A stretch of 64,000 nt of DNA from Pseudomonadota bacterium. GTDB lineage: Bacteria; Desulfobacterota; Desulfovibrionia; Desulfovibrionales; Desulfomicrobiaceae. Location: positions 1 to 64,000 of the forward strand of contig JAHIQM010000004.1 in the NCBI GenBank assembly GCA_018902545.1, written 5' to 3'. Of the stretch, positions 399-42,522 are shown one piece after another; positions within the stretch are counted from its first letter, which is position 1, and each line of letters starts with the position of its first letter. The notes under the pieces are model-generated. The model did no database searches. It saw only the letters and a program-made list of their open reading frames with translations, and had not been told where the DNA came from. Both the position numbers and the translations under genes were made by a program.

Positions 399-432
399 GT
401 CTGCCTGGATTGGCGGCAGCACAGGTTCAAGC

Positions 433-464
433 AAGCCCGGCCTACAAAGCCGGGCTTTTTCTTT
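433..464 (+). terminator. Intrinsic terminator after the chemotaxis receptor
   Basis: AAGCCCGGC and GCCGGGCTT form a perfect 9-bp stem around a 7-nt loop, followed by a T-rich run (TTTTTCTTT). It begins 35 nt after the receptor stop codon. Confidence 0.93.
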
Positions 465-501: not shown

Positions 502-678
502 GGCGGGCGCGGGTTGGTCCGGTCAGGCCGCTTCGAAACTCCCTCGCGGGCCTCGTACGGCGCAATCGCTGCGTGCAGGGCGAAAAAGCGGAGCAAGACG
601 AACGGCAACGATTCCGCCAACGATGCCTGGCTCAGTCAGACAGTCGAAGCAACCTGACCGGACCAACCCGCACCCGCC
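502..678 (-). repeat. Structured palindromic repeat, copy A
   Basis: About 177 nt, read on the minus strand. A 35-bp outer stem pairs 644-678 with 502-536. Its only departures from Watson-Crick pairing are three U-G pairs, all with U on the 5' arm. Inside are a conserved single-stranded core (CTGTCTGACTGAGCCAGGCA), a copy-specific ~14-bp inner stem whose loop ends in CGCCCTGCACGCA, and a second conserved core (TACGAGGCCCGCGAGGGAG). The same cores recur at 14652, 15276 and 42346 with other stem sequences. No protein is encoded. It lies between a terminator and the 3' end of the leftward DUF4105 gene. I do not recognise the family. Confidence 0.8.
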
Positions 679-12236: not shown

Positions 12237-12313
12237 TGGGGTGAGTGACGCGGCTTGAACGCGCGACATCCTGGGCCACAACCAGGTGCTCTGCCTACTG
12301 AGCTACACCCACC
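12237..12313 (-). tRNA. tRNA-His (GTG), copy 1
   Basis: The minus strand folds into a full cloverleaf: acceptor stem GTGGGTG/CACTCAC, D-stem GCTC/GAGC, anticodon arm CCTGG-TTGTGGC-CCAGG with anticodon GTG, and T-arm GCGCG-TTCAAGC-CGCGT. The extra 5' G (position -1) opposite C73, which is specific to tRNA-His, is present, and the 3' CCA is encoded. The mature part looks identical to the second copy 130 bp away. Confidence 0.97.
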
Positions 12314-12366: not shown

Positions 12367-12443
12367 TGGGGTGAGTGACGCGGCTTGAACGCGCGACATC
12401 CTGGGCCACAACCAGGTGCTCTGCCTACTGAGCTACACCCACC
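12367..12443 (-). tRNA. tRNA-His (GTG), copy 2
   Basis: The cloverleaf, GTG anticodon, G-1:C73 pair and encoded CCA match those of copy 1. The two genes lie 130 bp apart in the same orientation. Their terminators differ in sequence, so the duplication covers the tRNA but not its terminator, or is old. Confidence 0.97.
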
Positions 12444-14642: not shown

Positions 14643-14651
14643 CGAACCAAG

Positions 14652-14820
14652 GAGTCGGGTTGGTCGGTTTGTGTTGCGCCGACTGTCTGACTGAGACAGG
14701 CATCGTTGGCTTGTCCGTTGCCTGTCGCGCATCCACGAATTCCCGCCCTGCACGCAACGGTCAAGCCTTACGAGGCCCGCGAAGGAGTTTCGGCGCAGCA
14801 CAAACCGACCAGCAAGGCTC
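14652..14820 (+). repeat. Structured palindromic repeat, copy C
   Basis: About 169 nt in plus orientation, nearly identical to copy B at 15276. The outer stem pairs GTTGGTCGGTTTGTGTTGCG with the 3' arm at about 14790-14815. The inner stem GGCTTGTCCGTTGC pairs with GCAACGGTCAAGCC apart from one T-T mismatch. The conserved core has one change (GACTGAGACAGG instead of GAGCCAGG), and the outer 3' end has decayed, so this may be the less active copy. Together with copy B it brackets a ~0.45-kb segment as direct repeats. Confidence 0.78.
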
Positions 14821-14975
14821 CGCCGCACAGCACCGTCTTCCCATCTTTCCAGCAAACCCGCCCTAACAGCACACCTATCTTTCCTTACCCATCTTCCCAA
14901 TCTGTTCCTTCAAAATATACTCTCCACGCCCGATATGCTGCCATAACGCAAACTGGTAAAAAGCGAATATTTGCC

Positions 14976-15275: not shown

Positions 15276-15446
15276 GGAGTCGGGTTGGTCGGTTTGTGTT
15301 GCGCCGACTGTCTGACTGAGCCAGGCATCGTTGGCTTGTCCGTTGCCTGTCGCGCATCCACGAATTCCCGCCCTGCACGCAACGGTCAAGCCTTACGAGG
15401 CCCGCGAAGGAGTTTCGGCGCAGCACAAACCGGCCAGCCCGACTCC
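15276..15446 (+). repeat. Structured palindromic repeat, copy B
   Basis: About 171 nt in plus orientation. A 32-bp outer stem pairs 15276-15307 with 15415-15446 and departs from Watson-Crick pairing only at three U-G pairs, again with U on the 5' arm. The conserved core CTGTCTGACTGAGCCAGGCA, the inner stem GGCTTG(T)CCGTTGC, the loop end CGCCCTGCACGCA and the second core TACGAGGCCCGCGAAGGAG follow in the same order as in copies A and D. The element ends 49 nt from the 3' end of the leftward ABC exporter gene. Confidence 0.82.
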
Positions 15447-18740: not shown

Positions 18741-18780
18741 TGAAGGCCGAAAAAAATCCTACCATCGCTGGTGCAAATGG

Positions 18781-18826
18781 AGGAGTCATCGGCGGCTGTC
18801 GCGGTTCAAGGGGGACCCCATCCCCT
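18781..18826 (-). promoter_or_regulatory. Fluoride riboswitch aptamer (crcB motif)
   Basis: The minus strand reads GGGGATGGGGTCCCCC, then AACCGC, then CGATGACTCCT, which are the conserved blocks of the crcB-motif fluoride riboswitch in order and spacing. It lies upstream of crcB on the same strand. In the family, fluoride binding stabilises the pseudoknotted fold and permits expression of the exporter. Here the downstream terminator would be the control point. Confidence 0.9.
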
Positions 18827-19018
18827 CTTTTCTAAGTATGCCTGGCGTGATTCGAAGTAAAGACGGTTTTCTGCGGTGCAGCGGCAACAGGCAACATTTG
18901 AAACTGCTGCCCGCACGGAAGAGTACTGCCCGGCTCGTAAGTGGCGTTATGGAGTCTCACTCGCTCAGATTCGTTGACCCCATTGGCTTGACTCCAGTGG
19001 CTTGACTGGAGATGTTAA

Positions 19019-42345: not shown

Positions 42346-42522
42346 GAGCGGATCGCTTTTATTCCGGCAAGGGTCGTCGACTGTCCGACTGAGCCAGGCA
42401 TCGTCGGTTTCCCCGTCGTCCCCCCGCCAGCGTTCAGACTTCCGCCCTGCGCACGACGGGGAAACCCTACGAGGCCGGCGAAGAAGTTTCGACGACCCTT
42501 GCCGGAATAAAGCGGTCCGCGA
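42346..42522 (+). repeat. Structured palindromic repeat, copy D
   Basis: About 177 nt in plus orientation. The outer stem pairs ATTCCGGCAAGGGTCGTCGA and its upstream extension with the arm at 42489-42522, with one U-G pair (U on the 5' arm) and a single-base bulge. The inner stem GGTTTCCCCGTCGT pairs perfectly with ACGACGGGGAAACC. Conserved cores are CTGTCCGACTGAGCCAGGCA and CTACGAGGCCGGCGAAGAAG, with loop end CGCCCTGCGCACG. Stem sequences are unrelated to those of copies A-C, which shows that pairing and not sequence is maintained there. It lies 108 nt before an ABC transporter operon. Confidence 0.82.

Follow-up and report, generated by a model that had tools for sequence, protein, structure and literature searches.

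The inverted repeat at positions 502-678 of the window, a stretch of 64,000 nucleotides comprising positions 1 to 64,000 (forward strand) of contig JAHIQM010000004.1 in assembly GCA_018902545.1 of a sulfate-reducing bacterium of the genus Desulfomicrobium (Desulfomicrobiaceae), is one copy of a dispersed family of elements of about 180 bases. Counts of imperfect pairs strongly indicate that the strand on which the core of the element is read, minus at 502-678, is the strand that must fold. Judging from its sequence, the element may well be an undescribed structured RNA of gene 3' regions that is of mobile origin and is now maintained.

The copy at 502-678, referred to here as copy A, consists of two 35-nt arms that are 91% complementary and flank a 107-nt core. 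Its arms, delimited from inverted repeat I1 and the arm alignment, lie at 644-678 (minus strand), which is the core-5' outer arm and bears the U of three U.G pairs, and at 502-536 (minus strand), the core-3' outer arm. The core between them (537-643, minus strand) lies within a covariance model match at 518-663 on the minus strand (151 bits) and contains, reading from 643, the conserved 5' block CTGTCTGACTGAGCCAGGCATCGTT, an inner stem, a variable apical loop and the conserved 3' block TACGAGGCCCGCGAGGGAGTT. About 50 matches to the DNA of 502-678 are found in the window's own genome (3.7 Mb in 22 contigs), 30 of which were aligned as one family; the covariance model finds about 50 copies in that genome and similar counts in several congeners. 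The outer stem of every copy measures about 32-35 bp; its sequence is locus-specific yet always self-complementary. The internal loops are the same throughout, with CUGUCUGACUGAGCCAGGCAUCGUU at the 5' side and UACGAGGCC-GCGAAGGAGUU at the 3' side, and are followed by a variable inner stem with compensating changes and a variable tip. Changes on both sides with pairing kept are seen at 31 of the 45 consensus pairs, and the covariation score is 0.507 as opposed to 0.179 for shuffled alignments, with none of 500 shuffles reaching it. When the partner is slid by one to three columns, pairing falls from 96% to 33-44%.

Named contigs bearing the core motif belong to Desulfomicrobium, Desulfonatronum and unclassified Desulfovibrionales. 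Two genomes of the same order (family f4) contain 70 and 76 matches and are presumed to be Desulfonatronum, a label taken from the named contigs that carry the core motif; in these the loops are nearly unchanged, and the arms and inner stems have wholly different sequences. Distant members occur in other families (loci L081, L082 and L083), with CTGTYTGANCGAG near the 5' arm, GAGYGAGTTTTT or a similar sequence near the 3' arm and much longer tips, and possibly represent an older form of the element. A search of plasmids returned no match, and viral contigs gave none for the specific motif and one for a looser short motif. In a wider search of the phylum, of low sensitivity because 10 candidates were scored per genome, only the window's own genome matched. 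Literature searches with the motif sequence returned unrelated matches only, and searches on Desulfomicrobium repeats found nothing relevant.

The folding strand is revealed by the pairs of the outer stem that depart from Watson-Crick complementarity, which in copy A are U.G on the minus strand, with U on the 5' arm, and C.A on the plus strand. The arms were aligned under a scoring in which G·T and C·A count equally, so that neither was favoured. Events at orthologous loci of Desulfomicrobium comprise 121 wobbles and 11 C.A types on the core strand (p=1e-24), and the Desulfonatronum arms contain 56 wobble pairs against 11 of the C.A types. The large excess of wobbles implies selection for folding of the core strand, and bears out the proposal of the first-pass annotation that pairing is kept on one strand alone, either as RNA or as a folding single-stranded DNA (ssDNA). 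For copy A the computed folding energy is -120.7 kcal/mol (z -9.9) for the minus strand and -103.6 kcal/mol (z -6.6) for the plus strand.

Among the wobbles there is in addition a real preference, of about 2:1 and strongest near the core, for U on the 5' arm. The annotation had described T on the 5' arm facing G as nearly universal, which holds for the outer stems of the four window copies, with T.G/G.T counts of 3/0 in A, 3/0 in B, 3/0 in C and 1/0 in D (10/0 in total; B, C and D came without coordinates and were taken as the copies with cores at 14683+, 15308+ and 42381+), and weakens to about 2:1 to 3:1 in a larger set. This set contains 147 copies with readable arms from five Desulfomicrobium genomes, of which the first 32 stem positions were scored, and gives 282 T.G, 83 G.T, 10 C.A and 13 A.C pairs. 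When events are counted once per orthologous locus and position there are 82 T.G and 39 G.T (binomial p=1.2e-4) at near-equal opportunity (424 vs 404 pairs), and the T.G fraction is 0.62-0.75 by bootstrap over loci. Equal frequencies of the two orientations, the outcome named in the annotation as telling against its pattern, are not seen. The excess is strongest at positions 4 and 7-9 and still present at positions 10-32 (59 vs 32 events, p=0.006), where one representative per locus leaves a weak difference (44 vs 31). The inner stem, taken as one copy per locus, has seven T·G and two G·T, too few wobbles to judge polarity. The Desulfonatronum replicate also has more T.G (39) than G.T (17), mostly because pyrimidine-purine pairs outnumber purine-pyrimidine pairs there. 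The 5' arms of Desulfonatronum are T-rich and almost free of A, with 331 T-A and 60 A-T pairs.

This polarity is probably a secondary effect to which neighbour stacking in the G-rich 5' arm contributes. Single-pair replacements in the real arms cost 2.39 kcal/mol for C>U on the 5' arm (U.G) and 2.72 kcal/mol on the 3' arm (G.U), and 0.47 kcal/mol for A>G on the 3' arm (U.G) and 0.57 kcal/mol on the 5' arm (G.U); U.G is thus cheaper than G.U in such arms and stacking pushes towards the observed polarity and explains at least part of it. The two readings that had been attached to the polarity are not borne out. As U.G and G.U are both wobbles on the same strand, their ratio does not by itself identify a transcribed strand, and a repeated C-to-T change in one arm is not needed when the wobble events include 34 A/G changes on the 3' arm alongside 48 C/T changes on the 5' arm and U.G is the cheaper pair. 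Differences between orthologues on the 5' arm are 246 C/T and 56 A/G, and on the 3' arm the ratio is reversed (199 A/G, 105 C/T), so that a simple one-strand C-to-T bias is no explanation.

Copies from genomes G000, G001, G009, G013 and G015 were grouped into orthologous loci by their flanks. Divergence between orthologues is 4.5-5.0% in the loop blocks, 10-11% in the arms, 18% in the middle and about 20% in the alignable intergenic flanks. The flank value covers the alignable cases, as over half of the flank comparisons were too diverged to score; the arm value is slightly favoured by the admission of pairs at 75% arm identity, which does not directly affect the loops; and no p value is attached, since pairs from one locus depend on each other. 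Since the loops are far less diverged than the flanks, the resident copies appear to be under purifying selection. Copies stand at orthologous sites across species with their orientation nearly always retained. Within a genome, copies at different loci reach at most 93% identity, near the orthologue median of 93%, and tandem neighbours reach 100%, so that dispersal is old and local duplication ongoing. Three contigs of G000 end within element copies (C6:189086, C7:136050 and C9:150388), and the family therefore breaks the assembly. A second short repeat, approximately TGGATCCCCGCCTTCGCGGGGATGACG, is common in the flanks of many copies (for example L004 and L007).

Gene context was assigned with a home-made gene caller whose codon scores were trained on 25 long open reading frames of the window. 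Among 40 loci, 18 lie between convergent genes, 14 are co-directional in sense, five co-directional in antisense and three divergent, and the avoidance of spacers between divergent genes looks clear. An intrinsic terminator was considered and rejected, since a terminator-like site occurs within 120 bp downstream of five of 46 copies and none is located at the stem end itself.

The strand of the element also segregates by chromosome arm in two complete genomes (G009, 33 of 41 loci; G015, 32 of 37). In 500 refitted strand shuffles the null has a mean of 29 and a maximum of 34 for G009 and a mean of 25 and a maximum of 31 for G015, so that the segregation is convincing in G015 and marginal in G009. 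Replication direction was judged by chromosome position and the direction of the rRNA operons, which are on plus in the arm where the elements sit on minus; the core strand therefore runs against the replication fork. The GC skew of 3-kb flanks was dropped as a proxy for replication because coding strands here are C-rich themselves. At 40 of 44 loci C exceeds G on the core strand of the intergenic flanks, and it does so in every gene context, including convergent and antisense. Desulfonatronum has no such skew of strand by chromosome arm (19 of 33).

Orientation has changed in place at two loci. The site of copy A in G001 and G013 holds the same element between the same genes, 95% and 90% identical respectively, in the opposite orientation; the U-bearing arm remains on the 5' side of the core and has moved with it. 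The element is absent from the site in G006, G009 and G015. The second inverted locus (L088 vs L155) is G015 C1:1040218 compared with G001, G009 and G013, where the flanks are up to 97% identical to those of G009. Both inversions could have resulted from recombination between the arms. At the other loci the orientation agrees, or a mismatch stems from the comparison of neighbouring copies. Most of the element copy at L259 (G015, about C1:1577526-1577738) has given way to another palindromic repeat, CTCCCCTCCTGCCAAGGAGGGG...CCCCCTTGGCAGGGGGAG, and part of the 3' arm of the copy is left. Two sites were compared for a target-site duplication and none was resolved, the flanks being too diverged or replaced by the other repeat.

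The element resembles several known systems in part. Like the REP and REPIN sequences that accompany RAYT (REP-associated tyrosine transposase, TnpA-REP), it is a dispersed intergenic palindrome of high copy number with compensatory hairpin changes and tandem arrays, and group 2 REPs have an internal bulge as the element does (PMC3116915, PMC8266576, PMC3733652). It differs in its length of about 180 nt, its free arms, its constant internal loops and its old copies at orthologous sites. The 5' GTAG (or CGTC) tag of REPs is absent from the consensus (30-copy alignment, 147 arm pairs), where the arms differ between loci, and with a best non-tandem identity of 93% within a genome the recent dispersal typical of REP/REPIN is not found. 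The enterobacterial ERIC, Neisseria NEMIS/Correia and Yersinia YPAL repeats are palindromes of 100-170 bp adjoining genes, with conserved inverted-repeat sequences and mostly with target-site duplications, that are co-transcribed as RNA hairpins and act on mRNA; ERIC does so in an orientation-dependent manner and NEMIS via RNase III, and YPAL targets lie near dyad symmetries (PMC2229807). In contrast, the outer arms of the element always pair but are locus-specific and its internal loops are fixed, which sets it apart from these families as defined by a conserved inverted-repeat sequence. With the structured RNA motifs of Rfam 15 it has in common strand specificity and constant internal loops flanked by covarying stems. 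It differs from them in being scattered over the genome in about 50 copies whose neighbours are diverse, and none of the Rfam 15 covariance models matches it, even at permissive thresholds.

The window contains three further copies, all on the plus strand and with approximate outer limits. The second (14651-14821; covariance model match 14663-14808) has its core from 14683 and arms of 32 bp, and the third (15276-15446; match 15288-15433) its core from 15308 and arms of at least 32 bp; the two are paired between convergent genes at a spacing of about 625 bp. The fourth (42348-42520; match 42361-42507) has its core from 42381 and a different inner stem (GGTTTCCCCGTCGTC) with unchanged loops. Copy A is faced by the 3' end of a gene on the same strand (735-1754, minus) that encodes a 339 aa protein with a Pfam Lnb_N domain. 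On the opposite side of copy A from this gene, a chemotaxis gene ending at about 398 is followed by a terminator-like hairpin and T run at 432-463 (plus), which was read by eye in the sequence and has no tool score. Elsewhere in the window are a fluoride riboswitch (RF01734, 46 bits; 18773-18834, minus) and two tRNA genes with equal scores 130 bp apart (12240-12312 and 12370-12442, minus).

It is somewhat unlikely that the element is mobile DNA of the REPIN kind, a hairpin copied in trans by RAYT acting on folded ssDNA, where the wobble bias would mark the strand that the enzyme must fold. The high copy number, intergenic location, hairpin with internal irregularity and tandem copies are all as expected of such an element. 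Element-rich Desulfomicrobium genomes mostly encode two to six Y1 transposases and element-free ones none or one, a suggestive distribution, and in G000:C18 a RAYT gene (NCBIfam NF047646, 84 bits) lies just ahead of two element copies on the same strand (L239 1837-2682 (-), 1338-1748 (-)). However, only one of 20 Y1/RAYT neighbourhoods holds copies and the other 19 hold none, and neither G014, with 27 copies, nor G041, with 76 matches, has a Y1_Tnp match. Furthermore, the recognition sequence of REPs is in the arms, which vary freely in the element; near-identical dispersed copies are lacking; and the related IS200/IS605 transposases act on the lagging-strand template, which is not the strand whose pairing is kept here. 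The element may once have behaved like a REPIN, but it is not classed as one here.

A hairpin-forming DNA element whose orientation serves chromosome replication or structure, not via RNA, is unlikely. The segregation of strands by chromosome arm, opposite to the rRNA operons, speaks for it, as does the excess of C over G in the flanks, convergent and antisense contexts included, but Desulfonatronum lacks the skew and constant internal loops with free arms look like RNA motifs. Hairpin copies are prone to loss when their better-folding strand is the lagging-strand template. An orientation bias is also expected from such loss, which could account for copies running against the fork. A neutral palindrome, kept by template switching from arm to arm and marked with wobbles by a strand-biased C-to-T change, is largely refuted and highly improbable. 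Inverted repeats do get homogenised, two loci have inverted and C/T differences exceed A/G differences on the core strand of the flanks by 436 to 297; template switching, however, would not spare G.T over C.A at 121:11 when the flank bias is 1.5:1, nor would such a process be expected to leave the reversed ratio of the 3' arm or loops fourfold more conserved than the flanks.

A structured RNA made from upstream genes fits the strand-specific folding, the constant loops, the free arms and the 3' location. The folded molecule would accordingly be RNA rather than ssDNA, made mostly by read-through from the upstream gene. A protein may recognise the constant internal loops as displayed by the long stem or, alternatively, the stem may act as a barrier at mRNA 3' ends that affects stability, processing or termination. 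The element would once have spread, perhaps as a non-autonomous mobile hairpin, and would now be retained by selection and local tandem duplication. Several observations weigh against this structured RNA. G.T is also tolerated in folded ssDNA, so that RNA is not proven, and the sense excess at co-directional loci reaches p=0.064. Ten upstream genes, including HslU-, HSP90-, GlpX-, GatB- and fumarase-like ones, have no common theme, and the flipped copy A of G001 and G013 is sense to the chemotaxis gene but lies past the terminator-like hairpin of that gene. Several Desulfomicrobium congeners are without any copy, and this patchy presence argues against an essential function.

In most bacterial palindromic repeats the ends are conserved and the middle drifts, whereas in this element the internal loops stay constant and the two ends change together. 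It is possible, if rather doubtful, that the element represents a new class of dispersed structured RNA in the Desulfovibrionales, with constant loops and sequence-free complementary arms, situated in orthologous 3' regions, directed against the fork and invertible, and that a former mobile hairpin has thereby become an RNA element that is spread genome-wide and has a binding partner of its own. Counts of wobbles against C·A over orthologous copies show, with no more than sequence, which strand of a repeat folds, and whether repeats are parasites or working parts of the genome becomes a question that is testable on single copies of this element.
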